Assembly: GCA_902551155.1 (NCBI GenBank) | Contig: CACDBG010000012.1 | Coordinates: forward strand, 1 to 44,591 | DNA: 44,591 nt | Source: an uncultured Verrucomicrobiota bacterium | GTDB taxonomy: Bacteria > Verrucomicrobiota > Verrucomicrobiia > Limisphaerales > UBA1100 | Direction of reading: 5' to 3' | In this document: piece after piece, positions 401 through 16,320 of the stretch | How the letters are laid out: the number at the start of each line of letters is the position of its first letter | Numbering within the stretch: position 1 is the stretch's first letter | Notes under the pieces: model-generated | Database searches by the model: none | The model's input: only the letters and a program-made list of their open reading frames with translations | Told to the model about the DNA's origin: nothing | Program-made: the position numbers and the translations under genes

Positions 401-1579
401 ATGCCAGAAAAAGAACCGATGTATAAAATGCCGGACCTACTCAACCTAATGGTTGACTCAGGGGCGGCTGATTTACACGTGCGAGTAGGTATTCCTCCTG
501 CGTATCGGGATGGAGGTACATTGAAGCGCGTTGAAGGGCCGGACTGTGAGCCTGAAGATGTAGAATATTTAGTAAAGGCAATCGCAAACGATGATGAAGT
601 TCAAAATATCAGAACTGTAGGGGGAGCTGATTTTGGCTTTGCATTCGGCACCAAGGCGCGTTTTCGGGTTTCTGCATTTAAGGAGCGAGGTAATATGGCG
701 CTTGTTCTTAGGCAAATTCCCAATGAGTTGTTGCCACTGGATGTGATTGGGCTTGATGAGACGCTCATCATGCGATTGCTTAATACGCCTCGTGGAATGA
801 TATTGGTGACAGGGCCAACTGGTTCGGGGAAATCAACTACGCTTGCCTCGATGATCAATATCATTAACGAGGAACAGGATCATGCTCATATTATTACCAT
901 TGAGGACCCCATTGAATTCTATCATCCTCATAAGGAGGCAATCACTACTCAGCGTGAAGTTCACAAGGATGTGCCGAGCTTTGCGGAGGCTTTGAGGCGT
1001 GCGCTGCGTCAGGATCCAGAAGTGATTCTAGTGGGCGAGCTGCGTGACTTGGAAACCATTGAAATGGCGGTGTCTGCAGCAGAAACTGGTCACTTAGTAT
1101 TTGGTACACTTCATACCACTGGAGCAGCAAAGACAGTTGATCGAATTGTAAATGCTTTTCCGATGCAGCAGCAGGAAACAATCCGTATTCAGTTATCTAC
1201 AGTTTTGCAGGCTGTGATTTCACAGATTTTAGTCAAACGAATTCCAAAAGGTCGGTGCGCGATTCATGATATTATGATTAATACACCATCAATTGCCGCA
1301 CTTATACGTGATAATAAAACATTCCGTATTCCTTCCGATCAGCAAACTGGACAGAAATATGGAATGGTGACACTCGATGATGGATTATTTAACAGATATG
1401 CTGAGGGTGTTGTTAGTCGGGAAGATTGTCAGGATAAGGCGCAGGACTACAATGGCATGATGATGCGTTTAAAAGAATATGATGAGCAACAGGCGGCAGA
1501 GGCTGCTGAGCGAGGGGATGCTCCTCCTGGAGCGCCCGGGGCCGAGGGCGCGCCTCCTCCGCCTCCACCACCTGGATAA
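401..1579 (+). CDS. pilT: Type IV pilus retraction ATPase PilT
   Basis: This is the cytoplasmic hexameric ATPase that powers pilus depolymerisation and twitching. The Walker A motif GPTGSGKST is at residues 138-146. A Walker B-like VILVGELRD follows, then the His box HLVFGTLHTTGA. The N-terminal PAS-like domain begins with 'LLNLMVDSGAADLHVRVG', typical of PilT. At 392 residues it is somewhat longer than common PilT proteins (about 345-370). The extra length is a C-terminal tail rich in Ala, Gly and Pro that ends in seven consecutive prolines before a final glycine. The C-terminal 'SIAALIRDNK' corresponds to the retraction motif region AIRNLIREGK. It sits between two PilB/GspE paralogues and upstream of pilC, within one tight + strand operon. 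Confidence 0.95.
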   Translation: MPEKEPMYKMPDLLNLMVDSGAADLHVRVGIPPAYRDGGTLKRVEGPDCEPEDVEYLVKAIANDDEVQNIRTVGGADFGFAFGTKARFRVSAFKERGNMALVLRQIPNELLPLDVIGLDETLIMRLLNTPRGMILVTGPTGSGKSTTLASMINIINEEQDHAHIITIEDPIEFYHPHKEAITTQREVHKDVPSFAEALRRALRQDPEVILVGELRDLETIEMAVSAAETGHLVFGTLHTTGAAKTVDRIVNAFPMQQQETIRIQLSTVLQAVISQILVKRIPKGRCAIHDIMINTPSIAALIRDNKTFRIPSDQQTGQKYGMVTLDDGLFNRYAEGVVSREDCQDKAQDYNGMMMRLKEYDEQQAAEAAERGDAPPGAPGAEGAPPPPPPPG

Positions 1580-1591
1580 ACCAATTAGATA

Positions 1592-3352
1592 ATGGAAGGA
1601 TTAATTACAAATCCGTTGTTGAATTTGATTTCAGAACGGCAGCTCGCTGATCCGCAGGATATTGAGGCGATACAGGGAGAGCATAATTTATCAGGTGAAT
1701 CGATAAACAAGCTTCTTAACGCTCAAGGTGTTCTCGATACCGCTTCGCAACTCGAGTTAATGGCTGAGTATTTAGGAACAGACGTAATTGATGTATCGGC
1801 AATTGAGTTTTCTGATGAATTACTGGAATTAATTCCTGCCGAAATAGCCAAGAACAACCATTGTATTCCAATCGGTATGGACGGAGAGACACTTCACCTG
1901 TGCCTGGTGGATCCACTTAATCCAACAATTCTGGATGATTTAGCTTTTCAGTTAAACAAACCATTGCAGGTGCGTATTGCTGATCCGGCCGCAGTGCAAA
2001 AGTTAATAGATGAAAAATATTCAGAAGAAGAAGAGTCCTATCAGCAGCTAGTGGATGCTTTTGAGGCTAAGAAGAATGCAGTTTCAGATGAAGACAGTAT
2101 CGCGGCCAAGATCAATAAACTTAGGGGCAGGGATCCGTCAGGCGAAGTCGAGGATGAAGCACCGGAAGCTTTGGAGATTTTAGAGGAAGTAGGTGATGAG
2201 GCGCCAATAGTTAGATTCGTGAATATGATTCTTTATCAGGCCTTAAAGGATTCGGCTGCAGATATACACTTTGAGCCTTTTGAAGACACCTATCAGATTC
2301 GTATGAAGGTTGATGGTTCCATGAAGATTATGACGCCGCCTCCGAAGGAATTAGCGCCAGCGATTGCGTCACGTTTGAAGATCATGGCGGGGTTGAATAT
2401 TGCTGAGCGAAGGATTCCTCAGGACGGGCGTATTCAGGAAACAATCGCTGGACTAGAGCTCGTCTTTCGCATGAGTACATTGCCAACCAAGTTTGGGGAA
2501 TCGGTGGTGCTCCGTCTATTGGATTCTTCAAACGATGATTTAACCAGCCTTGAGGCGTTAAGTATACCTGAGAAAATTGATTATAGCATTCGCCATTGCG
2601 TTGAGCAGCCTAACGGGGTTTTTCTTGTAACTGGGCCTACAGGCTCAGGCAAGACAACAACCCTGTATGCCTGCCTGCGAATGCTTAACACGGTAGAGAC
2701 CAAGATACTTACAGCAGAAGACCCCGTTGAATTTCCGGTAGAAGGAATTGTTCAATGCCACATTGTTGAATCCATGGGGATGTCGTTTGCCAAAGCACTT
2801 AAGTCATTTCTCCGGCAGGATCCTGACATTATTCTGGTAGGAGAGATGCGTGATTTAGAAACTGCTGCAATTGGTATCGAGGCGGCACTTACAGGTCACT
2901 TGGTGGTTAGTACACTGCACACAAATAGCTCCACTGAGGCAATTACTAGGCTTTTGGATATGGGGGTTGAGCCGTTTATGATTTCCTCTTCAGTTAATGG
3001 TATATTAGCACAACGCCTCTGTAAGACGATTTGTCAAAAATGTAAGGTGAGCAACAAAGTTACTCCCGATCAGCAAAAAATGCTTCGGCTTAAAGACGAG
3101 GAAGTTACTGGGGATCTATACTATGGGACCGGTTGCGATTTTTGTAGCAATACTGGATACCGGGGTAGACGTGGGATTTATGAGGCTTTAGTCATGAACG
3201 ATGAAATTCGAAATTTAATTGCTGATCGGACTCCTGCTTTGGAACTACGTGATAAATGTGTGGATGCAGGAATGCAGACCTTGCGAATTGATGGTTTGCG
3301 GCTTATGTTCGAGGGGACTTCCACCTTTGAGGAAGTCATGAAGTATACCTGA
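1592..3352 (+). CDS. pilB: Type IV pilus assembly / type II secretion ATPase (PilB/GspE family)
   Basis: This is a full-length 586-residue secretion ATPase that energises pilin or pseudopilin polymerisation at the inner membrane. The N-terminal MshEN/GspE-N domain covers roughly residues 1-150. An acidic linker (about 140-200) leads into the N2 domain ('AADIHFEPFEDTYQIRMKVDG'). The ATPase core has Walker A GPTGSGKTT at 348-356, Asp box ILTAEDPVE, Walker B IILVGEMRD and His box HLVVSTLHTNSS. The zinc tetracysteine is CKTICQKCK and CDFCSNTGYRGRRGIYEAL. It is 12 nt downstream of pilT and 5 nt upstream of pilC. It is a second ATPase of the same family as the fragment at the window start, so the locus has two assembly motors. 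Confidence 0.94.
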   Translation: MEGLITNPLLNLISERQLADPQDIEAIQGEHNLSGESINKLLNAQGVLDTASQLELMAEYLGTDVIDVSAIEFSDELLELIPAEIAKNNHCIPIGMDGETLHLCLVDPLNPTILDDLAFQLNKPLQVRIADPAAVQKLIDEKYSEEEESYQQLVDAFEAKKNAVSDEDSIAAKINKLRGRDPSGEVEDEAPEALEILEEVGDEAPIVRFVNMILYQALKDSAADIHFEPFEDTYQIRMKVDGSMKIMTPPPKELAPAIASRLKIMAGLNIAERRIPQDGRIQETIAGLELVFRMSTLPTKFGESVVLRLLDSSNDDLTSLEALSIPEKIDYSIRHCVEQPNGVFLVTGPTGSGKTTTLYACLRMLNTVETKILTAEDPVEFPVEGIVQCHIVESMGMSFAKALKSFLRQDPDIILVGEMRDLETAAIGIEAALTGHLVVSTLHTNSSTEAITRLLDMGVEPFMISSSVNGILAQRLCKTICQKCKVSNKVTPDQQKMLRLKDEEVTGDLYYGTGCDFCSNTGYRGRRGIYEALVMNDEIRNLIADRTPALELRDKCVDAGMQTLRIDGLRLMFEGTSTFEEVMKYT

Positions 3353-3357
3353 TACAA

Positions 3358-4620
3358 ATGCCACTTTTTAGCTACATTGCCATCGACAAGGATGGAAAGC
3401 AAAAGGAGGGGACTCTTGAAGTCACTAGCCAGAATGAGGCTATTTCACGAATCAAGGAGATGGGCTTTTATCCAACTCAGGTAGCTGAGGTTAAGGACAC
3501 ACCTGAGGAGGCAAAAAAGCGCAAAGAGAAAAAAGGAAAGAAAAAGGGGGAGATCGGTTTTGCTTTACCGTTTGTAAATACCAAAGAGCTTTGTATGTTT
3601 ACCCGCCAATTGGCGGTTTTGATTGATGCGGGTTTGCCGCTCATGAGGGGGATGAGCACCCTTTCCAAGTCTATTCCTAACGTTTACTTCAAGGGCGTCA
3701 TCAATGATATAGGAGAAACGATTGGAGGAGGTTCCACATTTTCTGAAGCATTAGCCAAGCACCCCAAGATTTTTGATAAATTGTATATCAATATGGTCAA
3801 GGCTGGAGAGATTGGCGGTGTGTTAGAGATTGCACTGAACCGTTTGGCTGAGTTCCAAGAAAAAGCTGAATCCATCAAGGGAAAGGTTAAGTCCGCAATG
3901 TTCTATCCGGTCGCGGTAATGATTGTGGCTACTATTATCGTTGGCATATTGATGACTTTTGTGATTCCGAAGTTTAAGGCAATTTTTGCCGATATGTTGG
4001 GAGATGGAGAAACGCTTCCAGGGTTTACCATGCTGGTACTGAATATTTCAGATGCTATTAGGAATAACGTGGTGGCCGTTATTGGAGGCGTATTTGCCTT
4101 CTTTATTGTTTTCAAACTAATAGTAGGAAAAACCAAGGCTGGTAGATGGGCTTGGGACAAATTTAAATTGATATTGCCAGCTCTCGGACCATTGGTAAGA
4201 AAAGTAGCAATCGCGCGTTTTGCTCGCACCTTGGGGACTCTCATTTCTTCAGGTGTGCCTATTCTTCAGGCTTTAAGTATCGTTAAAGAGACTGCTGGTA
4301 ATGTTCATCTTTCCAATGCGATCGATAAGGTATACGACGCGGTAAAAGAGGGTGAAACCATTACTAAGCCTCTTGAGGCTTCGGGCATCTTTCCTCCAAT
4401 GGTTGTGAGCATGATTGACATTGGTGAAGAAACCGGTGCCTTGCCCGAAATGTTAGTGAAAGTCGCCGATGTTTATGAGGAAGAGGTGGATAATGCGGTT
4501 AGCGCTCTTACATCACTTTTGGAACCTGTGATGATTTGTTTTCTAGCTGTTGTCGTTGGAAGTATCGTTATTGCGATGTTTTTGCCGCTTATCAAGATGA
4601 TGGATAAGCTCGGATCCTAA
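3358..4620 (+). CDS. pilC: Type IV pilus / type II secretion inner-membrane platform protein (PilC/GspF)
   Basis: This 420-residue polytopic platform protein connects the cytoplasmic motor ATPases to the growing pilus. It starts 'MPLFSYIAIDKDGKQKEGTLE', the standard PilC/GspF opening. It contains two T2SSF domains: the first begins at 'LCMFTRQLAVLIDAGLPLMRG', the second at 'IARFARTLGTLISSGVPILQA'. Three hydrophobic spans are visible near residues 180-205, 237-258 and 384-413. A Lys-rich linker (KKRKEKKGKKKGE) precedes the first domain. It follows the pilB-like gene after 5 nt and ends the compact pilB-pilT-pilB-pilC motor block. The following 114-nt gap separates it from the small BrnT-like gene. 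Confidence 0.95.
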   Translation: MPLFSYIAIDKDGKQKEGTLEVTSQNEAISRIKEMGFYPTQVAEVKDTPEEAKKRKEKKGKKKGEIGFALPFVNTKELCMFTRQLAVLIDAGLPLMRGMSTLSKSIPNVYFKGVINDIGETIGGGSTFSEALAKHPKIFDKLYINMVKAGEIGGVLEIALNRLAEFQEKAESIKGKVKSAMFYPVAVMIVATIIVGILMTFVIPKFKAIFADMLGDGETLPGFTMLVLNISDAIRNNVVAVIGGVFAFFIVFKLIVGKTKAGRWAWDKFKLILPALGPLVRKVAIARFARTLGTLISSGVPILQALSIVKETAGNVHLSNAIDKVYDAVKEGETITKPLEASGIFPPMVVSMIDIGEETGALPEMLVKVADVYEEEVDNAVSALTSLLEPVMICFLAVVVGSIVIAMFLPLIKMMDKLGS

Positions 4621-4734
4621 ATTATTTGGAAAATTTTCAAAAAAATACCCCCCGGCAGGTTGATTTTTACCCAAAATGGATGTAAATACTTTGTAGGGAC
4701 TTGGGATGGCTATATGAATCAGACATTTTGAAGA

Positions 4735-5037
4735 ATGGATTTTGATTGGGATAAGTGGTCAGACCGCCCTGGTTGTTCCTTGAAACAGCGCGAGATAGAA
4801 GAATCCTTCGAGGATCCGTTTTCTGTCAGGCTTTTACCGGATGCCCCTCGTTTTTCAGTAAACGCCAGATATTTCAATTTTGGAAAAACGTCCTCTGGGG
4901 AGGGGGTTTTTGCGGTCTACCGAGCAAATGGCAGGCAGATTCAGGTGGTATGTGCGCGGTTGTTTACGCCGGAGGAAGGGTTCTTTTACGAGCGCCAGCA
5001 GGATAAATTATTAAGTAATAATGGAGGATCGGGATGA
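4735..5037 (+). CDS. brnT: BrnT-like (DUF497) small protein, putative toxin component
   Basis: This 100-residue protein fits the BrnT/DUF497 layout: a 'FDWDKW' opening, 'EIEESFEDPFSV' where BrnT has its EExF-DP segment, an aromatic 'ARYFNFGKTSSG' strand, and the closing 'IQVVCARLFTPEEGFFYER', which resembles BrnT 'IRIISARxATxxERxxYE'. Characterised BrnT proteins are RelE-fold ribonucleases neutralised by BrnA. The basic 'KHG' patch usual near residue 15 is replaced by 'PGC', so activity is doubtful. Its stop overlaps the next start (ATGA), and the toxin-first order with a CopG/RHH partner is the brnTA order. The location inside a pilus operon is unusual. Function is inferred by pattern only. 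Confidence 0.6.
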   Translation: MDFDWDKWSDRPGCSLKQREIEESFEDPFSVRLLPDAPRFSVNARYFNFGKTSSGEGVFAVYRANGRQIQVVCARLFTPEEGFFYERQQDKLLSNNGGSG

Positions 5038-5303
5038 TAGTTAGTGATTGGAAAGAAGTTCCGGAGTTTTCCGGGGAAAAAGAGGAAGCAGCCTTTTGGG
5101 AAGAGGCACAACTGGACGTGCGATTGATGGAAAATTCAGTGATGGCCAGCCCAACCTCCAAGGATTCGGTAACCATTACTCTACGCATGGATCCGCGCAT
5201 GTTGTCCAAAATCAAGTGGATTGCCCGAACACGTTTCCTGAATTACCAAAGCATGATCAAGCAATGGTTGAGCGAACGAATGGAGGAAGAAAATAAAAAA
5301 TAA
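5034..5303 (+). CDS. brnA: BrnA-like CopG/RHH antitoxin-type regulator
   Basis: This 89-residue protein has the BrnA/CopG antitoxin pattern. An N-terminal acidic segment 'VPEFSGEKEEAAFWEE' (compare 'FxSExEExxFWxxHD') leads to a C-terminal ribbon-helix-helix, 'VTITLRMDPRMLSKIKWIARTR', then 'NYQSMIKQWLSERM'. RHH proteins of this type bind operator DNA as dimers and neutralise the partner toxin. A good Shine-Dalgarno GGAGG (5023-5027) lies 6 nt before the chosen ATG. The ATG overlaps the stop of the BrnT-like gene by 4 nt, which implies translational coupling. It ends 4 nt before the first pseudopilin gene, so it might instead be a local regulator of the pilin genes. Confidence 0.65.
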   Translation: MIVSDWKEVPEFSGEKEEAAFWEEAQLDVRLMENSVMASPTSKDSVTITLRMDPRMLSKIKWIARTRFLNYQSMIKQWLSERMEEENKK

Positions 5304-5307
5304 ACTT

Positions 5308-5880
5308 ATGAGACGGACTCAAAGACAAAATAAAGTTCGCGGCTTTACCTTGACCGAGATTCTGGTGGTGATGGTGATTGCCGGGATTTTATTGGCATTG
5401 ACACTGGGTTTGTACAGCCGAGTAAAGAGTAAGCAGGTAGAGTCACGACTGAAGACGGAAATGGCAACCATTGAACTGGCGCTGGAAAACTACAAGGCAG
5501 AGAAGAATGGGTTTCCGACAAGTATATCGTGGAATGGAATTCAATATCCGAGGAAAGGATGGGGTGAAGCTGTGGCTCTGGATACAACTGGCAAGCCTTG
5601 GGCAAACAGGCTTTATAAACATTTATGCCCAAGTCAAGGCAGGCAATTTTTACCAAACGGTCGAAATAGCGCTGATCCAAGCGATAACCCCGAAGTTCTT
5701 CTTTCATCGGCTCCAGATGTTGTGCAAGGGAAGTTAACAAAGTGGCACTACAATTCCTACAATCCAGTATATAACAAGAACTCGTATGATCTTTGGGTTG
5801 AATATGGGGATTATGGCGATGATGGAGTCGCCGGAGGTGGTGATGATGTTATAAAAGTTATTTCAAACTGGTCAAATTAA
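5308..5880 (+). CDS. GspG-like type II secretion / type IV pilin-like pseudopilin
   Basis: This 190-residue pseudopilin has a basic leader (MRRTQRQNKVR), then a class III prepilin cleavage site G-FTLTE with Glu at mature position 5, followed by a hydrophobic helix 'ILVVMVIAGILLALTLGLYS'. The C-terminal domain has the GspG features: 'MATIELALENYKAEKNGFPTS', then 'YDLWVEYGDYGDDGVAGGGDDV', a calcium-loop-like acidic stretch. It is the only pseudopilin in this cluster with the canonical Gly at -1. It is probably a major or minor subunit of the fibre assembled by the upstream motor. It starts 4 nt after the BrnA-like gene. Confidence 0.85.
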   Translation: MRRTQRQNKVRGFTLTEILVVMVIAGILLALTLGLYSRVKSKQVESRLKTEMATIELALENYKAEKNGFPTSISWNGIQYPRKGWGEAVALDTTGKPWANRLYKHLCPSQGRQFLPNGRNSADPSDNPEVLLSSAPDVVQGKLTKWHYNSYNPVYNKNSYDLWVEYGDYGDDGVAGGGDDVIKVISNWSN

Positions 5881-5890
5881 GAGGAGAAAC

Positions 5891-6691
5891 ATGAAAGAGA
5901 AAATAGAAATTACAAGAAGGGCCTTCACGCTGGTTGAGCTTTTAGTGGTTATCGCTATCGTTGCTATTTTGGCCGGTATTTTATTGCCGGTGATTGCCAA
6001 GTCCAAAACAAAAGCCAAAGTTGCTACTGCCCGTTTTAGTATAAAGGACTTGGACGCAGCGATTAAAGCCTATAGGACCGACTATCAACGGTTTCCGATT
6101 CCGGCCAACTATCCACGAAATATGTTTGGTGATGCGAGTGTAGACCCGGTTCCGCTACAGGCTCTAGCCAACAGGAATGCAGAATACAAAATCCCTTTCC
6201 CGACGCATTCTAATAATAACCAGCCTGCTCGTAACAGCGATATCATGTATATCCTCATGAACGATGTAAATGCGAACGGTTCGAACCCAGGAGGATCCAG
6301 GAATCCGAAGAAAAATATCTATCTCTCACCCAAGGAGTTGGGCCCAGAGAATAGTGCCAAATCGCTTAGAAAAACAGGAGTTTCCGATGCCAGAATTTAC
6401 CGTGATCCATTTGGAAATAGGTTTAAGATATCCATGGATTTAAACCGGGATGGGTACTGTTTCGATTATTATTACGGGTCAAAATTTGGCGGCACATTCG
6501 CGGAGGAAGGCTTAATAACACATCAGGCCAAAGTTAGGTGGAATGGGCATCCGCTTAATGGGCAAGATCTCCAGTACAGTGCGTTTAAGGGGGATGCTAT
6601 GATTTGGACTGCGGGTCCTGACAGGGTGGTTGAAGGAATGAGCCAGGACGCGAATAATCCTGATATTGATAATATAAAGAGCTGGGATTGA
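5891..6691 (+). CDS. GspG/prepilin-type N-cleavage protein, second pseudopilin
   Basis: This 266-residue prepilin-like protein has leader MKEKIEITRRA and cleavage motif A-FTLVE followed by 'LLVVIAIVAILAGILLPVI'. The residue at -1 is Ala, not Gly. The mature region has 'ARFSIKDLDAAIKAYRTDYQRFP', the GspG-type helix 2, and a C-terminal 'GDAMIWTAGPDRVVE', common in this group of planctomycete and verrucomicrobial pseudopilins. A strong Shine-Dalgarno (gaggaga, from 5881) supports this start. It lies 10 nt after the first pseudopilin and one base before the cassette D-like gene. It is likely secreted through or assembled by the same motor. Confidence 0.82.
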   Translation: MKEKIEITRRAFTLVELLVVIAIVAILAGILLPVIAKSKTKAKVATARFSIKDLDAAIKAYRTDYQRFPIPANYPRNMFGDASVDPVPLQALANRNAEYKIPFPTHSNNNQPARNSDIMYILMNDVNANGSNPGGSRNPKKNIYLSPKELGPENSAKSLRKTGVSDARIYRDPFGNRFKISMDLNRDGYCFDYYYGSKFGGTFAEEGLITHQAKVRWNGHPLNGQDLQYSAFKGDAMIWTAGPDRVVEGMSQDANNPDIDNIKSWD

Positions 6692-6692
6692 T

Positions 6693-7892
6693 ATGAATTT
6701 AGATGGCCAGAAGACGGTTGAACTAGATAGAAGGCAAACCGCCTTTACTCTAGTTGAATTGTTGGGGGTCGTGGCGATTATTGTAATTATTCTTAGGCTT
6801 ACGCTTCCTGCATTGGATGGTATTTTAAGCGGAGACGGGGACGGGATGGCGCGAACTCAGGTGGTCGGTGATCTTAACCGCGCGCGTCAAATGGCATTGG
6901 AGAAGGGGGTGTCAGTCTACATGGTGTTCATGCCGCTCTATGATGATATACATCCGAACTCAGGTGACCCGCACAGCACACCCCCTATACCCCCAATAAA
7001 TACAGTGGTTGATGGCACTGTATTCCGTGATGCTGATAAGCGGGCTTATTTTTCACAGGATAAAGGCGTGAATGCGCTCCTTGGCTCTCAGTTAACTAGT
7101 TACGCAATTTATGCAGAGTATATGCCGGGAGATCAGCCGGGAAACCCATCAACCAAGTGGTTGACTGACTGGAAGGAGCTGCCCGCTGGGTATCATTTTA
7201 ATCGAACTGAATTAAATCTGCTGGAGCGGTTAAAGGTCCAATACTTGAAGGGCAATAAACCACTTCCTGCTAATCGTATCGGTCTTGAGCTTCCTCATAT
7301 AAAATTTAATAAGCGAGGGGAATTAGAATCGAAACGAGGTGATAGGGTTATGGGGGGTATATTTCTTTCGGTTGGCAAGGGCGGGGTGTTGCCTCCAGGG
7401 AAAAATCAATCTGATAAATATATCCCCGGTGACGCGGACCCACCTGAGGCGGTTGCTTCTGCTGATAGGAAATGGCTTTTCATCAACGGCATAACGGGGC
7501 GTGCCGAAATTAAAGAGTTGTCAGAGGAGGAGGCTGCTGCTGGGTTAGATTTAGAAAAAAGCGAATATCAGCTTTTTATCTATGCATCGCCTAAATATCC
7601 CCCTGATTTTCATGCCGCACTCATTAATTCTACCGATGTAACCGGGTACGTTAGTAAAGTGGGTGCAGTTTATGATTCAGGCTGGCCTGGGCCGAGAGAG
7701 TGGAGTGTGGGGCCGGACGGTCTCTCCTATAGGAGTAAAACTTGGCCTTCCAGTAATGATTACGTGCCGGCTTTCTCGCGTTTACTAGATCGACAATCGG
7801 CTCTCACTCTCAAGAGAAAAATTGAAAAGTTAGTGAGTTCGGACCCAGCTCTTAGAGGGAAAAAGTTAGAAGTTTATATCAGGAGTAAATAA
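6693..7892 (+). CDS. Verru_Chthon cassette protein D-like prepilin-type protein
   Basis: This 399-residue protein has a prepilin N-terminus (TA-FTLVELLGVVAIIVIILRLTLPAL) followed by 'TQVVGDLNRARQMALEKGVSVYMVF'. That GspH-like arrangement matches the Verru_Chthon cassette D family, although family members I recall are much shorter (about 200 residues). The extra length lies in the mature periplasmic or extracellular region, which I do not recognise. Its stop codon TAA shares its last base with the ATG of the next gene, so translation is probably coupled. Assignment rests on gene order (D-B-C-A) and the N-terminal pattern. Confidence 0.7.
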   Translation: MNLDGQKTVELDRRQTAFTLVELLGVVAIIVIILRLTLPALDGILSGDGDGMARTQVVGDLNRARQMALEKGVSVYMVFMPLYDDIHPNSGDPHSTPPIPPINTVVDGTVFRDADKRAYFSQDKGVNALLGSQLTSYAIYAEYMPGDQPGNPSTKWLTDWKELPAGYHFNRTELNLLERLKVQYLKGNKPLPANRIGLELPHIKFNKRGELESKRGDRVMGGIFLSVGKGGVLPPGKNQSDKYIPGDADPPEAVASADRKWLFINGITGRAEIKELSEEEAAAGLDLEKSEYQLFIYASPKYPPDFHAALINSTDVTGYVSKVGAVYDSGWPGPREWSVGPDGLSYRSKTWPSSNDYVPAFSRLLDRQSALTLKRKIEKLVSSDPALRGKKLEVYIRSK

Positions 7893-9592
7893 TGATTTTA
7901 ATGCGGCTTATAGCGCCAGGAAAGCGAGCCTTCACCTTGCCGGAGGTAGCTTTGGCTATTGGGGTGATAGCATTGGGCTTAGTCGGAGTATTTTCTATTC
8001 TTCCTTTCGGATTAACGGCGCAAAAGAATAATCAAGAGGAAACGATTATTCGTTACGAAGCTCAATATTGGCATGAGGCATTACTTTCAGATGGTTTACT
8101 GTTAGAGGATATTAATGAGCGAGTAGACCGGGTAGAGGTGCATGATGAAAATGCTTCTGTAACCCATACCTTTATTAATCCACTTCGTTCTCGCCCTGAC
8201 CCGCAGAACAGTGCTCGGGAAATAGTCAGGTACGAGGAGAATGGGACTGTTAGAACCCCTTACTCTTATCCGGCTTCTAGCCTTTCCTTATTCAAGGCGA
8301 AAAAATATTGGTCTTCAGATGTGCAGGGATGGTTGTTAAATCCCATTGATATAACAGGTCTCAGTGGAAGTTTTGCTCTGGTAAGGGCTATTAACGGTCC
8401 GTTGTTTGATCGTTTTTATGGGGCGGAGCCACAGAATGATGTTTATCATTTTCCAAACCGTGATTTTTCCGCCGGTTATATTTTGCAAGTGCAGCCGGAG
8501 AATACTTCGTTCGGTTCTGAGATTAGGATGACCTTTTATTGGCCATTATTTGAGGAGGTTATGGAAAAGCTAGAGCCTAAGCCGACTACTACGGGAGGGC
8601 AAATTAATACAATTAAGAGCGTTATTGTGGATTCAATGTCGCCAGATTCAGTTATTAAATTTAAAACAAAAAGTTTTACGATAAAAGTACCGGGAAAAAT
8701 TCACCAAGCTTTGACTGAAGATAAACTTACTCTTCAGGAGCGACGTTTTATGGGAGAAATGCGTGTTCTCAGGCCGGGAGAACGGATAGATTCTGATGAT
8801 CCCAGATTGAAGGGAGTCTTTAAGGACTATTATTCTTTTTCTCATCCTTATGCAGATGATCTAGGGAACCCATGGGTTAGCCCGCTACAATATCGCCCGA
8901 GGAGAATGTTTAATAACGGGAGTAGTTTAATTTTTAAGGTGAAGATGCCGGGAGGTAGTTGGGTTAATGTATTAAATAACTATCCTGATAAGAATAAAGA
9001 TCCATCATTCCGGCCAGACAGGTGGGCTGTTCAACTTCCGGGAGAACTAGAGATTTGGGCAAGGGCGAGTTATGAAAATATTTTGGGGCCGACAAGTCAT
9101 TCGGGCATGTGGCTCCATTCGAATGGGCACCCTCCTGTTCAGATCGGCTGGGTAGGATCCAATCAGTTTCCATTTTTTGGAGTTCTTAAGTATAATGGTT
9201 CTGATGAAGGTTCTTATGCTGTTTTGGGGCCCGGCCAATTGCCTTACCATCTGGTTAACACCAGTAATTTGGGCCCCGAAAATAACTACAGGATTAGCTT
9301 TCTTGGGCTTGATCTAAAGGGGTTGCCTCAGGACTGGGAGAGCGTTTTACGTGGGTATGCTGATACCATAACCGACTCCGATGCGGTTTTGCTGAGCCGC
9401 CCTAAAATTCTTACCCCCAGGCCCAATCTGGTTACTGATGCAGGAGGTTATTTTGTGCTCGCCAGAAGGTTGAGGGTGACTACTCATCGTCCAGCTACCA
9501 CCGATGAAAAGGTGTTTAATGGTCAGGGTCTTGCTCTTTGGGATTGGGTTCCCGATGAGGATTCTGTGCCTAGATTATGGAGGGTTGAGTAG
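7892..9592 (+). CDS. Verru_Chthon cassette protein B-like prepilin-type protein
   Basis: This 566-residue protein has leader MILMRLIAPGKRA and the site A-FTLPE, then 'VALAIGVIALGLVGVFSILPFGL', the GspI/PilV-like helix ending in 'LPxGL' that is typical of Verru_Chthon cassette B. A helical segment 'QKNNQEETIIRYEAQYWHEAL' follows. The remaining roughly 500 residues have no domain I can name. They are rich in Pro, Gly and aromatic residues, consistent with a beta-rich exported domain. It overlaps both neighbours by one base (TAATG at its start, TAGTG at its end), so D, B and C are translated as a unit. Confidence 0.72.
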   Translation: MILMRLIAPGKRAFTLPEVALAIGVIALGLVGVFSILPFGLTAQKNNQEETIIRYEAQYWHEALLSDGLLLEDINERVDRVEVHDENASVTHTFINPLRSRPDPQNSAREIVRYEENGTVRTPYSYPASSLSLFKAKKYWSSDVQGWLLNPIDITGLSGSFALVRAINGPLFDRFYGAEPQNDVYHFPNRDFSAGYILQVQPENTSFGSEIRMTFYWPLFEEVMEKLEPKPTTTGGQINTIKSVIVDSMSPDSVIKFKTKSFTIKVPGKIHQALTEDKLTLQERRFMGEMRVLRPGERIDSDDPRLKGVFKDYYSFSHPYADDLGNPWVSPLQYRPRRMFNNGSSLIFKVKMPGGSWVNVLNNYPDKNKDPSFRPDRWAVQLPGELEIWARASYENILGPTSHSGMWLHSNGHPPVQIGWVGSNQFPFFGVLKYNGSDEGSYAVLGPGQLPYHLVNTSNLGPENNYRISFLGLDLKGLPQDWESVLRGYADTITDSDAVLLSRPKILTPRPNLVTDAGGYFVLARRLRVTTHRPATTDEKVFNGQGLALWDWVPDEDSVPRLWRVE

Positions 9593-10881
9593 TGAACTTT
9601 TCTTTGGGTCATTTTCCAATAAGGATAAAAGCTTTCACAATGGTGGAATTAATGGGGGCTGTGACAATAGCCTTAGTTCTTATCATTATGCTTTATAATA
9701 TATTTGATAAAGTGCAGAGGGTTTTTGTCATTGGGCAAAACCGGGCAATTGCCATGGATGAATCTCGCTCGGCAATGGATATGATGGTTGAGGATTTTCA
9801 GCAGCTAAATGTTATTGGGGACCTAAACGGAAGCGAGCCTAACCTGAATTGGTTGCCAGAACGCGGTGTTATGTGGGATCAAAATAAAGGAGCTTTTGAA
9901 TATACATTGCCTGTCTATACGAGCTTGATAGCTCAACCATTCAAAATCACAAGGGTATCGATTAACGGGACGCGATTAGGTGCTAATGCTACACTCAGTG
10001 CGCAACCTGCTGAGTTTATCGACCATAATGGAAATGAAGCTCCCATAGCGAGTTTTCCTGCGGGTTCAAGCTTGGGGTTATATCACCATAATTGCCGGTT
10101 TTTCACATATGATGGCGGTGCATGGCGGCTGGTGCATTACAGGTTTGGAACTAGTGAGCGTTACTTTATGCCAATTTCAGATCCTCTGGGTATTCAAGCT
10201 GATTTAATGGATACTCCGGTTGGTGCTCTGTGGTTGTATCGTTCGCCTCCCTCTGGTCGTTCTGGGCTTAATGGGCATATACCTGAACATGTGAGTTTTC
10301 AAAATTTGGAAAGACCTCCAGTATGGAATTCTCTAACAAATTGGCCAAAAGGGTCATTGGTATTTTTTTATGAAGATAAAAATTATTATCGTGCTTTATC
10401 CAGTGTGTTTTCAGGATCATTAGTTTTTCCACCAAATCAAGATGCCTTAAATTGGGCAAAGCTAAATTCAGGAGGAATTGATGCCCCCATGGGCTTTTCC
10501 CGGCTAATAGATGGGGTAATTCATTTCCGTGTTCGGGCGGTGGCTGCAAATAATTTTAACCGTGGTATGGAAGAATACATTTATCCCAAAAATCCCTTTA
10601 GAGGCAACCAGCTTCCATCTTATGTCATGCTAGAACTTGCAGTTTTAGACCGTAAGCTTCGAGAGGAGGTTGGGAAAGGGATGGAGCAAGAGCTGGAAGG
10701 GGTGCAGCTTTCTGTGGCAGAAGATTCATTCATTAGCGCAAGTTATTCGTCGGCTGATCAGAAAGTGCAGCGTGAAAGAAGATTGGCCTCTGAAAGATGT
10801 AGGTTGCGATTAAAAAGGATAAACGAAAATCTGGATCGAGTTTATTTTTTTAGGCAACTTGTTAAAGTGCGCAACCAATAA
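9592..10881 (+). CDS. Verru_Chthon cassette protein C-like prepilin-type protein with CBM5/12-like segment
   Basis: This 429-residue protein starts at GTG. It has cleavage motif A-FTMVE and the helix 'LMGAVTIALVLIIMLYNIFDKVQ', then 'DESRSAMDMMVEDFQQL', matching the GspJ-like cassette C layout. Around residues 242-293 the pattern 'PVWNSLTNWPKGS' ... 'YYRAL' ... 'P' ... 'NWAKL' resembles CBM5/12 modules (W-x-Y-x-G-x-V ... Y-x-A ... P ... W), which bind chitin or cellulose. The C-terminus is very basic and charged (Arg/Lys/Glu-rich). It sits between cassette B and A genes and overlaps B by one base. The cassette role is good; the carbohydrate-binding idea is inference. Confidence 0.72.
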   Translation: MNFSLGHFPIRIKAFTMVELMGAVTIALVLIIMLYNIFDKVQRVFVIGQNRAIAMDESRSAMDMMVEDFQQLNVIGDLNGSEPNLNWLPERGVMWDQNKGAFEYTLPVYTSLIAQPFKITRVSINGTRLGANATLSAQPAEFIDHNGNEAPIASFPAGSSLGLYHHNCRFFTYDGGAWRLVHYRFGTSERYFMPISDPLGIQADLMDTPVGALWLYRSPPSGRSGLNGHIPEHVSFQNLERPPVWNSLTNWPKGSLVFFYEDKNYYRALSSVFSGSLVFPPNQDALNWAKLNSGGIDAPMGFSRLIDGVIHFRVRAVAANNFNRGMEEYIYPKNPFRGNQLPSYVMLELAVLDRKLREEVGKGMEQELEGVQLSVAEDSFISASYSSADQKVQRERRLASERCRLRLKRINENLDRVYFFRQLVKVRNQ

Positions 10882-10893
10882 TAAGGAATGTTT

Positions 10894-13800
10894 ATGAGCC
10901 GAAATAATACTGAGAGAGGGGCGGTTTTGGTCGTTGCTTTGGTTATGTTAGCCATGGTGACTTTTTTGGTCGTTGCGTTCGTTGGCTTTGCACGTTTTGA
11001 GCGCGCCTCGGTTACGGCTTCTTTGAAGCGCACTGAGGCAATGTTTATTCAGGGTAATAGTCAGTCAGTTTCGTGGAAAACTGCAGTCAATCACGTATTC
11101 ATTGACAGCAATGCAACACCGACTATTAGGGTGTCGCAAAGATTTTCTACGAATCAAAACGTACCTGTCTACATAGATACAACTGGTGACGGGGTGCAGG
11201 ATACTATTTCTACTTACTTAAATTTGAATGCGGAGGTGAACAATCCTTTGCTTGGTGGTGATCGTTTTTTTCAGCCCTCAAATCCGGAGGCATTGGTATT
11301 CGGAGACCCTGAATGGATCGGGTTGCTTGAAAATCCAAATGAACCTCATGGTCCTGAGAATCATTTTGTCGCCCGGACGGCGTATATGGTTGTTCCGGTT
11401 AGTGAGATACTAAATGTCCGTTATAACCACCGTTTTGGGGCTAGCGCATTAAATAGTCATTACCGCGGTCAAGGGGGTTCTCCTCGTAGCATTGACCTGG
11501 CCGCACCGTTGTTTCATATGCATCCTGAATGGTTTAGTGGTCCAAGACGTAATCCTTATCTATATGCCGGCGCCTTGCATGAATTAGGTGCAGCAGTGGG
11601 GGATGCTTACTTTTATGGTCGCCCTTCCTTAGAGTTTAAACAGGCAAGAATTGAGAATAAAACAACCCCGGTTACTTTCCGAGCGCATCAGGCCGCTGAA
11701 AAGCTGTTAACTGAGACGGATCTGGCAGGAGGGTTTGGTGGTTCATTGAATGCTTGGTTCAGGGAAAATGGTGAAGGGAAAAAACCGTATGGGTTATATA
11801 AATTTTTAGGAACCTTTTCGGCTGCTGAATTGCCTGAGGAAAAAATGGGTTTCGATATCAGCTCTATTCGCGATGAATCTACAAGTGGCTTTGGCTATCC
11901 ATATATTGATGCTTTAGGAGGGTCTGCTGTGAGGTTTCTACAGCCTCACGGCCTGAAAGATGGCGATAAGATAGAAGAGCAAGCAGGGCTGCCTCCACAC
12001 ATCGTTGACCCAATTAAATTTGATCTCGTTACCTCTGACCCAGCGGAAATAAAAGCGTTGCTCATTAAGCTTATCCAAGGCGGATCCCTTCTAACCACTG
12101 TTCCCCATCGGTTGAATCCGGGTGATACAGTCAGTATGGTTATGTCTGGTATAGATTCCAATTGGCGCATATTGGCTAGAAATAAACCAAGCGATCCTTG
12201 GGTGCCTATTTCTTCCAGCCCCGGAATAGTTACTCCCAATATGATTCAGGTGCCCGCTAGTGGGAGGTTGCCTCTTCATTGGAAAACAGTAGCCTCCAAA
12301 TTGAATTCCCCCTCCTCAACGCCATTAACTCATAAGATAAGATTTAGTGTTGATGGAGAATCAGCTATTCAAGTTAATTTTAATCGTTTTCCTCCGCCGG
12401 TAGAATATGCCTGGGGTATAAAAGATACTGTTACTGGTGGCTGGGTTTCGCAGATGCTCATACTCGAGGATCCTGTTGCACCTTTGCCAGCCTCCCTACA
12501 GGATGTTACCTGCCAACTTGTTTATCGGCCTACGTATTTGGAGGCTGATAATATTCCCTATTTCACCAAAGTATGGGATAAGCAAACAGTTTCCATGCAT
12601 CGTTCAGCACAGTTGGATGAGCAATCAAGGGTACAGTTTAGAAGCAAGCCTGACTCTATTCCTTTTATTTCTCCTGGCCTCAGATCTGTTAATCCTGGTG
12701 ATATATTCAAGTACGAAGCGAGCGGTGAATTTATTACTTCCCTACCCAGTAGGTGGGAAAATGGTGATTATGTTCGGTTCCGGAGCGATGCTTCGTTTTC
12801 GAGCGGAGGAGCAGTTCATCCTGATCATGTTTTTCAGATGAAACTGATTGATACAACTGCCACTGAGCAAAAATTTAAGCTTAGCTTTATCGAGCCACCT
12901 TATGGTGAGCTTAAATTAACGGATGCAAAGAATTATAAATTGCATTTAGTACATCGTTTTAAGACAGATCGACTTACTGATGCAGTGGAGAAAATGGCTG
13001 GGGCCATGCTAAATGAATCCTTGGATGTTGAAAGTGGTGGGGCGACTCCTTTCAAGCTGGGTGGGCAAACTCTACCAATTCCAGATCCATCTAATACTTT
13101 CCCTCTTATTTACGGTATAGGCGGTCATCATGAACCCATGGGGCTATGGCATCAGACCAGTGGAGGTATTCCCATTGTTTCCTATACTAATGAGACTGAG
13201 CGTATCCTTCAAGTGGCCGCTAATATTGCAGAAATTTATTCTGACCCACCATTAACGCAACTCAAGGGCAGGGATGTTGTTTATTCTTCAGGAATGAAGT
13301 ATTTGCCATCTGGGGAAGAGGCTGCAGCTGATGGGACAGTTAGTGCGCAGATGCGTTACCTAGTTGTTAGTAAAGCGGGGATAGATTATGGCCCTTATCG
13401 AGCATTTTTTGAACCTGATTCGCCCTTTAAAATTTCAGATGGCTTTATCAGGGGGACCATTAAATTGATCGAGAAAGCCGCCTTTGACTTTGATAAGGCC
13501 CCGACGATTCTCCCTAATGACAAGCTGCTTGCTCAGTCAGCGCCTTGTAGGGTGAGGCTTTATGAAGAACAAGCTAATAGCGGTTCCTGGAAATGGAATC
13601 TTGAAGAGTGGGTGTGGAAAAATGGATATGCGGTTAGTGCGGGCAAATTTCAGTGGTTGGGGCTTCATTTGGCCATTGAGATGGAGAGCGGTCGTTTTAT
13701 TAAAGTTTTTCTCGATGGAAAAGAGGTGGTTAATTATGCATCATCTTTAAGGGTAGGTCCTGAGTTGGGGGCGACAAACTGGAAAGCTGTTGATCCTTCC

Positions 13801-16320
13801 ACTGGAAACCTTCGGCAGGGAGGTTTATGGTCTCTTGGTGGAGAGGCCTACTTTACCTGTATTCATCCTGCTGCGCCAGCACCGGGAGGTGCGTTGCCAG
13901 CGGGATGGATGTATCAATCTAATGCACGGCCACCAAATCCCCTTCCTAATGCCTATGAAGGAGTTTTCCGCCGTGATTACCTTAATAATGTTTATCTAAG
14001 TAGCTTGCAGAGAAGAGCTTGGTTCACGGGTGATGATTCTGCTACAAGTTGGTACCGAAGAGGCGCGCCCAAGATATTGGGGGTAAAGGATCGTTCCGGG
14101 AATTATGCAGGTCGAATGCCGGCGATTAGTGAAGTTTCACTGAGACTTACCTACGATCGCAAAAATAATAAGGTAATGGCTCGTTTGGCGATGGAAGTAA
14201 ATATGCCTCCAGCAGGGCTGCTTCCATCGTGCCAACTGCAGGTTAAAGAATTAACCCTGAGTGGTAACGGGATGCCAGAGTACCGGGATGTTAATGGTTT
14301 TAATGCTGAAGATGGGGCTGCCTTTCCCGTTAATGGAAATATAAATAAAACTACCACGTTAGATCTTTTTACTACAGGTAGTGATATTTCAGCTGTATTG
14401 CTCTCCGGGACCTTGCCGAACGGTTTTAATCGCGTTCTTTCCGATTCTGCCACCGGTGCTGTTAAGTCACTGGCTGATATTAAGTTTAGTGATATGCAAG
14501 TTTCATTTAAGGCACAAATAATAGCAGGAGGCAGCAGGGTGGTTGATTTCTTTGATGGAACACTGGCCTTACCCTCAGCCAGTTTGGGAAATCCCATGAC
14601 CAATCATGAACTCCATGCTCCAGTTTGGAACGCAACAGATGCTGGAGGGTACGGGGTAGGCAAGGTTGTGTTGGATCCCGTTAATCATAATTATTACCAG
14701 CTCCTGCCTAGCGGTTCGGGCACAGTCAAGCCGCCTGCTGCCGGATGGGCGCAGCTAACTGGCCGAAAATTTCGTAAGATTGATCTTTCCAGTCAGGTAA
14801 ATGATCCATTGGTCAATGGTTCACAAAGAGGTTGGCAGACTCGTGTTTATGCGCCCACTTATGTATCGGGTGGGAAGTTGGTTTCTAATATGAATGAAAC
14901 CAAGGTCTTGTGGAGTCCGTTGGTTATTGACCCTCCGATTTCAATAGGAAAAATGTATACAGATAAATCGTTCGCCACGGTATTCGGTTTGCCTGCAAGG
15001 CATTATTTTGGCGTGAATTTGGGTGCGGTTAATGATGCTTATCAACCATGGGGAAGAACTAATACTGGCGGAAAAAATGACTCCAGTATTAAGGACCCAG
15101 CTATTAATCCTTTTTATAGTTGGTGGAAATTTCCTGACGTTATGCGTGGTGGGGTAAAGAGCGTTGGTTGGCTTGGTCAAGTGCACCGCGGGACACCGTG
15201 GCAAACGTTATACCTGAAATCCAAGCCTAGTCCGGGGGTAGTTGCGATACAATCTATCAACGATGACACTGGTGTAATCACGACTGCTGAACCTCATAAT
15301 CTAGAAGTGGGTGATGTAGTGGGATTCTCAGGTAAAAAGCACGATACATGGACTGCACCGGGTGATTATCTTGGTAAAGATTATGTAGTAAAGTTAGTTG
15401 TTGGTCCTAATCAGTATACTTTAACCGAGGCCGGATTGGATGCGGTTATCAATTGGAATAAGGTTGGTGATGGATTCTACCTCACGCCAGACTTGTTTCT
15501 TGATTCCAAATTATGGACCGATTGGGCGGGAAGTTCCGATACCAAGCCGGCAAATGATCGTCGTTTATTGGAGGCATTTTATGTGTCAGGAGGTAAGAAG
15601 GTTCGTGGGAGATTGTCGGTCAATAACCGTACGGCTGAAGCGTGGAGTGGAGTGCTTCATGGAGTTTCCCTGCCCTTTATTCCTGATGTGGCCGGGTCGC
15701 CTCCGATTCCCAAGCGTATACTAGGGGTTTATGCCGGCCAAACAGGATGGAGTAGTAACTATATTGAAACCGATAAAGGGGCTACTGATACGAAATGGAA
15801 TTTTGGGATATTGGGAGGGATAGCTGCAGAAAGGAAAAAAGGTCGGTTCAAGAGAGCGACCGATATCCTTGGGGCGCCTCAATTAACTGATCAATCCCCT
15901 TATCTGCCCGCAATCGTGGGGGCAGCTAACCTTGGTCAATATTACTCCATGGTCGGTAAAGTTGATGAGTTGGATATAGAGAGAATCCCCATGCAGATAC
16001 TTTCTCTGCTAAAGGCAGGCGGCCCCAAGCGATATCAAATGTATATTTTTACCCAGCAATTAAAGCCAGCGCGCCGGTACCAGCCGACAGTTGGAGAGGG
16101 TAGGCCCGGGTTTGATGATGATGGGAATGTTTATAACTATGAAGTGGTCAGTCAGGCAGCTGAACGGGTGCTCGTTGAGTTGATTGGCGCTGAAGAATGG
16201 CATGAATCACTCAAGAGAGGTAATTATGGGCAATATAGGGATGCTGACGGAACCCTGAAGGACCTATCCAAGCCTTACCCAAAAATTATCAGAAAATATC
16301 CGATTGACATGGGATATTGA
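10894..16320 (+). CDS. Verru_Chthon cassette protein A-like giant protein (about 1808 aa)
   Basis: The ORF track starts at 10888, but AAGGA (10883-10887) abuts that ATG and lies 6 nt before the ATG at 10894, so MSRNNTERGAVLV is preferred. The N-terminus is GspK/PilX-like: 'ERGAVLVVALVMLAMVTFLVVAFVGFARF', one membrane helix with no FTxxE motif. The very long exported part shows 'HxLxxGDxV' segments near residues 350, 400 and 1470. The last continues into 'YVVKLVVGPNQYTLTEAG', as in E1_FCCH-type repeats. Near residue 1245 there is a CBM5/12-like segment (APVWNATDAGG ... YYQLLPSG ... GWAQL). It is probably the large tip or surface component of the cassette fibre. Confidence 0.75.
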   Translation: MSRNNTERGAVLVVALVMLAMVTFLVVAFVGFARFERASVTASLKRTEAMFIQGNSQSVSWKTAVNHVFIDSNATPTIRVSQRFSTNQNVPVYIDTTGDGVQDTISTYLNLNAEVNNPLLGGDRFFQPSNPEALVFGDPEWIGLLENPNEPHGPENHFVARTAYMVVPVSEILNVRYNHRFGASALNSHYRGQGGSPRSIDLAAPLFHMHPEWFSGPRRNPYLYAGALHELGAAVGDAYFYGRPSLEFKQARIENKTTPVTFRAHQAAEKLLTETDLAGGFGGSLNAWFRENGEGKKPYGLYKFLGTFSAAELPEEKMGFDISSIRDESTSGFGYPYIDALGGSAVRFLQPHGLKDGDKIEEQAGLPPHIVDPIKFDLVTSDPAEIKALLIKLIQGGSLLTTVPHRLNPGDTVSMVMSGIDSNWRILARNKPSDPWVPISSSPGIVTPNMIQVPASGRLPLHWKTVASKLNSPSSTPLTHKIRFSVDGESAIQVNFNRFPPPVEYAWGIKDTVTGGWVSQMLILEDPVAPLPASLQDVTCQLVYRPTYLEADNIPYFTKVWDKQTVSMHRSAQLDEQSRVQFRSKPDSIPFISPGLRSVNPGDIFKYEASGEFITSLPSRWENGDYVRFRSDASFSSGGAVHPDHVFQMKLIDTTATEQKFKLSFIEPPYGELKLTDAKNYKLHLVHRFKTDRLTDAVEKMAGAMLNESLDVESGGATPFKLGGQTLPIPDPSNTFPLIYGIGGHHEPMGLWHQTSGGIPIVSYTNETERILQVAANIAEIYSDPPLTQLKGRDVVYSSGMKYLPSGEEAAADGTVSAQMRYLVVSKAGIDYGPYRAFFEPDSPFKISDGFIRGTIKLIEKAAFDFDKAPTILPNDKLLAQSAPCRVRLYEEQANSGSWKWNLEEWVWKNGYAVSAGKFQWLGLHLAIEMESGRFIKVFLDGKEVVNYASSLRVGPELGATNWKAVDPSTGNLRQGGLWSLGGEAYFTCIHPAAPAPGGALPAGWMYQSNARPPNPLPNAYEGVFRRDYLNNVYLSSLQRRAWFTGDDSATSWYRRGAPKILGVKDRSGNYAGRMPAISEVSLRLTYDRKNNKVMARLAMEVNMPPAGLLPSCQLQVKELTLSGNGMPEYRDVNGFNAEDGAAFPVNGNINKTTTLDLFTTGSDISAVLLSGTLPNGFNRVLSDSATGAVKSLADIKFSDMQVSFKAQIIAGGSRVVDFFDGTLALPSASLGNPMTNHELHAPVWNATDAGGYGVGKVVLDPVNHNYYQLLPSGSGTVKPPAAGWAQLTGRKFRKIDLSSQVNDPLVNGSQRGWQTRVYAPTYVSGGKLVSNMNETKVLWSPLVIDPPISIGKMYTDKSFATVFGLPARHYFGVNLGAVNDAYQPWGRTNTGGKNDSSIKDPAINPFYSWWKFPDVMRGGVKSVGWLGQVHRGTPWQTLYLKSKPSPGVVAIQSINDDTGVITTAEPHNLEVGDVVGFSGKKHDTWTAPGDYLGKDYVVKLVVGPNQYTLTEAGLDAVINWNKVGDGFYLTPDLFLDSKLWTDWAGSSDTKPANDRRLLEAFYVSGGKKVRGRLSVNNRTAEAWSGVLHGVSLPFIPDVAGSPPIPKRILGVYAGQTGWSSNYIETDKGATDTKWNFGILGGIAAERKKGRFKRATDILGAPQLTDQSPYLPAIVGAANLGQYYSMVGKVDELDIERIPMQILSLLKAGGPKRYQMYIFTQQLKPARRYQPTVGEGRPGFDDDGNVYNYEVVSQAAERVLVELIGAEEWHESLKRGNYGQYRDADGTLKDLSKPYPKIIRKYPIDMGY

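Follow-up and report, generated by a model that had tools for sequence, protein, structure and literature searches.

Divergent CBM5/12-like modules in two pilin-like proteins of a Verrucomicrobiota type IV filament operon: possible contact points at the filament tip

Introduction

What could a short segment with the residue layout of a chitin-binding module be doing in the head of a minor pilin? The question is raised by a stretch of 44,591 nucleotides (contig CACDBG010000012.1 of assembly GCA_902551155.1, hereafter the window) from an uncultured Verrucomicrobiota bacterium, in which two neighbouring pilin-like proteins, C and A, each carry such a segment. An initial annotation of the letters had read both segments as CBM5/12-like and proposed that they form a carbohydrate-binding tip on a pilin-like fibre. 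Pilin cassettes of the Verru_Chthon type are widespread in uncultured Verrucomicrobiota and their function appears undescribed in the literature searched. Searches returned no paper for the cassette name and, judged by title and abstract, none of relevance for CBM5 together with pilin. A recurring module of carbohydrate-binding type in the tip subunits would provide the testable idea that the fibre touches polysaccharide, and CBM5/12 would join the few modules that have been described from tip pilins. The new aspect is the location, namely the tip pilins of a widespread and little-studied cassette.

The host is an uncultured marine bacterium that probably degrades polysaccharide. Its genome, about 50% complete, contains 68 sulfatase matches in 1.7 Mb, several members of the same genus have at least about 100, and this sulfatase richness fits a polysaccharide-degrading life. 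No GH18 chitinase was found in the about 50% complete host genome; the family is present in seven of the nine genomes of the genus.

Results and discussion

A filament operon ending in a D-B-C-A pilin cassette

Positions 401-16320 of the window hold a complete-looking type IV filament operon including PilT, PilB, PilC and six pilins, with the machine genes upstream of the pilins on the same strand, in the order PilT, PilB/GspE, PilC/GspF, a 100-residue reading frame, two GspG-like pilins, D, B, C and A (Table 1). A family scan of the 100-residue frame returned no convincing match, and the gene directly after that of protein A we take to be uvrA from its sequence alone.

Table 1. Features of the filament operon and of the two CBM5/12-like modules (nucleotide positions in the window)
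Feature	Position (nt)	Strand	Residues	Match or sequence
PilT	401-1579	+		TIGR01420 411.6 bits, above cut-off
PilB/GspE	1592-3352	+		TIGR02538 569.7 bits
PilC/GspF	3358-4620	+		NF052606 408.4 bits
100-aa ORF between PilC and first pilin	4735-5037		100 aa	best match TolB propeller, 11.6 bits only
GspG-like pilin, candidate main subunit	5308-5880	+		TIGR01710 39.3 bits
GspG-like pilin, candidate main subunit	5891-6691	+		TIGR01710 45.2 bits
Protein D, H-position minor pilin	6693..7892	+		TIGR02596-like N-terminus, 31.7 bits
Protein B, I-position minor pilin	7892..9592	+		TIGR02598-like N-terminus, 20.1 bits
Protein C, GspJ-like minor pilin resembling Verru_Chthon cassette C	9592-10881	+	429 aa	GTG start
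CBM5/12-like module of protein C	10318-10467	+	243-292	PVWNSLTNWPKGSLVFFYEDKNYYRALSSVFSGSLVFPPNQDALNWAKLN
Protein A, giant K-like minor pilin	10888-16320	+	1810 aa	
CBM5/12-like module of protein A	14620-14763	+	1245-1292	PVWNATDAGGYGVGKVVLDPVNHNYYQLLPSGSGTVKPPAAGWAQLTG
GWLGxVHRGTPWQTxYLK motif of protein A	about 15166-15219		1427-1444	nearly invariant in A order-wide

The cassette resembles the Verru_Chthon cassette A-D (TIGR02600, TIGR02598, TIGR02599, TIGR02596) in its D-B-C-A order and in the N-terminal matches of B, C and D, but differs from it in that all scores are far below the curated cut-offs (B 20.1 against 51.4, C 22 against 256.5 and D 31.7 against 70 bits) and in that the A protein of the window matches no model. 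The D-B-C-A order is kept at loci L061-L065 and L070 and at the order-level loci L075-L080, as far as the contig extends. Likewise, the operon is similar to the GspH-I-J-K systems of type II secretion and type 4 pili in having four minor subunits, in the match of the C N-terminus to GspJ (23.3 bits, below the cut-off of 64.85) and in that A, like K, has no Glu5, but A is several times the size of GspK and a PilT is encoded in the operon. The GspK model itself does not match protein A, and a homologue (L076), whose N-terminus matches Verru_Chthon_A with 24.4 bits, reaches 20.4 bits against a GspK cut-off of 130. Glu5 of the prepilin motif is found in B, C (KAFTMVEL) and D, while the N-terminus of A reads RG followed by AVLVVALVM. 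K-type minor pilins lack Glu5 and cap the HIJK tip (PMC9934059), A is K-like and C J-like, and by analogy with this complex both are probably located at the filament tip. A structural resemblance of C to EpsJ (2ret_B) was set aside as proof, since the TMt of 0.47 came with E = 1.5.

Protein A was detected in 48 of 58 related genomes. It was not found in the family members G001, G003, G004, G010, G013, G015 and G019, the last of these searches having no positive control, and the cassette is therefore either patchy or too diverged there. Some genomes in which cassette A was not detected are more than 90% complete. A scan of genome contigs with protein A gave a single relative, PBEJ01000008.1 (a Verrucomicrobiales MAG), apparently the same contig as that of relative G007, and a plasmid search with protein C gave no match.

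Two segments below profile detection

In protein C the module is inserted in the pilin head between the strands VGALW and RLIDGVIHFRV, whereas according to the alignments that of protein A lies between an invariant Asp and an invariant QxNDPLV block, immediately upstream of the latter. The motifs quoted in the initial annotation are indeed present at these places, and the core of the proposed layout (W-Y-G-V, Y-x-A, P and W) is kept in both, as W1247, Y1255, G1258, V1261, Y1270, P1282 and W1287 in A and as W245, W251, G254, V257, Y266, P280 and W288 in C. The agreement is however incomplete, since a tryptophan (W251) takes the place of the first core tyrosine in C and A has Y-Q-L for Y-x-A.

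Neither protein of the window nor the excised segments match Pfam PF02839 (CBM_5_12, curated cut-off 26.2 bits), no CBM was found in the two proteins with Pfam or NCBIfam models, and PF02839 has no match across the host genome. Single-sequence HMM scores of the window proteins are likewise near zero and within the range of shuffled sequences. The profile search by which the reading was to be checked thus failed, and judged on the window sequences alone a CBM5/12 assignment would count as refuted by it.

Relatives at the same positions nevertheless rescue the assignment, as homologues in sister genera do score on PF02839. The segment before NDPLV in the A protein of G011 reaches 29.8 bits when excised, above the cut-off, and that of G017 26.1 bits, also excised, although sister-genus segments score lower inside longer sequences and the full-length G011 protein drops to 20.5 bits. 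At E <= 1 PF02839 matches four of 13 aligned A fragments. The nearest relatives, G005 and G007, have C proteins that are 63 and 50% and A proteins that are 62 and 67% identical to those of the window, and both keep both segments. Among the aligned sequences the C insert between VGALW and RLIDGVIHFRV occurs in these two and the host only; the C protein of G009 has a similar insert, but in another loop. The module was considered as a defining trait of the gene family and rejected as such, aligned order-level A proteins outside the family having no module at this place.

Profile-profile comparison and predicted structure

The relationship was furthermore addressed with a CBM5/12 profile of 19 domains from the PDB and the order, including chitinase A1 (1ED7) and excluding sequences of the window's own family. 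Against this profile a genus-level profile of C scores 25.9 at residues 245-286, the best of 300 column shuffles being 20.1, and a family-level profile of A scores 27.3 at residues 1247-1288, the best of 200 shuffles being 18.0. When the A profile is restricted to the genus, the score falls to 19.4, with up to 17.4 reached in 150 shuffles. Since the scores exceed all column shuffles, and do so at exactly the segments in question, the layout in C and A is more than chance. The B and D profiles score 12.6 and 11.1 at unrelated places and show no module. When C and A are compared with each other, the two segments pick one another with a score of 36 at 39% identity, the next best place scoring 14. 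In the PDB, a related profile of these domains recovers CBM5/12 chains that include chitinase A1 (1ED7) and chitin deacetylases, and solved phage tail fibres are weakly matched as well.

Structure prediction, the second check proposed at the outset, gave defined strands for one segment only. The AlphaFold model of A residues 1062-1475 places strands at 1260-1262, 1269-1272 and 1287-1289 in a block with pLDDT 83-88, in the number and order expected for CBM5/12, but the segment of C, modelled from 16 sequences, has pLDDT 32-44 and no fold. Foldseek searches gave no significant match to the PDB for either model, nor to BFVD for the A model; such whole-model searches are uninformative here because the remainder of the model outweighs the small module.

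Taken together, the profile-profile matches, the scoring homologues and, for A, the three predicted strands support the proposed kinship of both segments with CBM5/12. The A segment is very probably a divergent module of CBM5/12 fold, and the same seems likely, with somewhat less confidence, for the C segment. Like established CBM5 and CBM12 domains (PF02839; 1ED7, CjCBM5) they have the W-Y/W-G-V-Y-P-W order and about 45-50 residues, with three short strands predicted for A. They differ in falling below profile detection on their own, in a turn from strand 1 to strand 2 that is two to three residues longer, in the loss of the ligand residues considered below, and in sitting within a pilin and not a glycosidase.

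Ligand residues

In CBM5 domains chitin is contacted by two adjacent residues, Tyr/Trp and Trp, and by a third, a tyrosine, while another tyrosine and a tryptophan belong to the core, and in chitinase A1 Gln679 and Trp687 matter for the ligand (PMC8449059). The core pair is retained in both segments (Y1255 and W1287 in A, W251 and W288 in C), but in place of the binding pair the alignment shows L-P-S (A) and L-S-S (C). The place of Gln679 is taken by P1274 in A and S270 in C, and that of Trp687 by V/K (A) and V278/F279 (C), F279 being the sole aromatic nearby, where these equivalences come from a short, diverged alignment and may be off by one or two positions. An HTS/HTA motif following strand 2, which sister genera share with chitinase A1, is furthermore lost in the window segments. 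Since A has no counterparts of the binding pair, Gln679 and Trp687, and F279 is the most that C can offer, binding of chitin in the known way is unlikely, and a chitin-specific function of the modules is disfavoured. Sugar binding as such is plausible only, and the modules may bind other sugars or none. Carbohydrate binding is not supported so far, given also the failed direct profile match and the low-confidence prediction for the C segment.

A possible role at the filament tip

The original proposal is also supported in that C and A are pilin-like proteins of a kind that occurs at filament tips; binding of carbohydrate by the tip is not supported so far. In the explanation that we favour, one strongly diverged CBM5/12-type module is carried in a head loop of each of two minor pilins, the J-like C and the K-like A, which probably come together in an HIJK-type complex at the tip, so that both modules would face outward. 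The machine would extend the filament, PilT would retract it, and the modules would act as the contact points of the tip, most likely for a polysaccharide or a glycosylated surface; crystalline chitin is not the expected partner, as the residues that usually grip chitin have been lost. We put it at about an even chance that these are degenerate CBM5/12-type modules grafted on tip pilins and possibly touching a polysaccharide other than chitin, the sugar contact being the least certain step. A precedent exists in PilC of the Streptococcus sanguinis type 4 pilus, a tip minor pilin whose lectin module binds glycans (PMC9934059). Both systems have a modular tip minor pilin with a module of carbohydrate-binding type on a pilin stalk, but PilC combines a ConA-like lectin with an Ig-like module and its glycan binding is proven, whereas here a 50-residue CBM5/12-like insert is found in two subunits and binding is putative.

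It may instead be that the fold has been kept and the function has not, and that the module is a small structural or protein-protein element, for instance one that joins A to C or acts as a spacer in the giant tip protein. This we consider a tentative alternative with perhaps one chance in three, which is in agreement with the absence of the known ligand residues, with the presence of similar modules in both C and A, and with the wide occurrence of the same fold in collagen-like proteins of the order and its weak match to tail fibres, where it may be structural. It is however in poor agreement with the insertion of the module in differing loops of A, B and C across lineages and with its absence from many relatives, which look like an optional attachment and not a required interface.

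The operon could also encode a type II secretion pseudopilus, with the modules recognising periplasmic cargo, such as exoenzymes that are glycosylated or bound to polysaccharide, and not an outer surface. The C, A, D and G-like subunits do resemble Gsp J, K, H and G, and the genome is rich in sulfatases, but a PilT-family retraction ATPase within the operon argues for a retractable pilus and makes this improbable. Least probable, if only slightly more so, is a chance resemblance of an unrelated aromatic-rich beta-hairpin insert, which would account for the missing direct Pfam match, the single-sequence scores and a genus-only A profile barely above shuffles, but not for profile matches at the exact segments exceeding all shuffles, for the PF02839-scoring positional homologues or for the three strands predicted in A.

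Distribution of CBM5/12 modules in the order

A whole-genome search of 146 genomes of the order with PF02839 gave nothing above the cut-off, and at E <= 0.05 found 40 places, which are spread over about 28 reading frames. About nine of these frames are cassette proteins, namely A in G121, G141, G159, G103, G048, G094, G012 and G014 and B in G101 (22.6 bits, beside N_methyl), while cassette genes presumably make up a tiny share of each genome. Scanned as a full-length protein, A of G141 reaches 37.0 bits, above the cut-off, at another position than the module of the window. A CBM5/12 profile built from PDB and non-cassette domains only gave 13 matches with E < 0.01 in cassette A and B proteins, the best reversed decoy scoring 2.3 bits, and the sites within A vary from far upstream to the NDPLV site and to the region after the RGTPW motif. 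It is conceivable, although we hold it to be rather unlikely, that the tip pilins of the order (I-, J- and K-type, with up to four modules in one K-type protein) have repeatedly been grafted with CBM5/12-type modules at varying places, the tip acting as a head that binds marine polysaccharides and is exchangeable like those of phage tail fibres.

As for single proteins, the cassette A protein of G141 (L117, contig C107, 666-6203) contains four CBM5/12-like modules that lie apart from one another, and one of them exceeds the Pfam cut-off. Most of the other matching frames that were read encode collagen-like proteins with GPQG repeats. Such proteins have CBM5/12-like modules between the repeats at L113, L115, L116, L121, L123, L125 and L128-L130, and up to eight of these modules occur in a collagen-like protein of contig C277 of G108.
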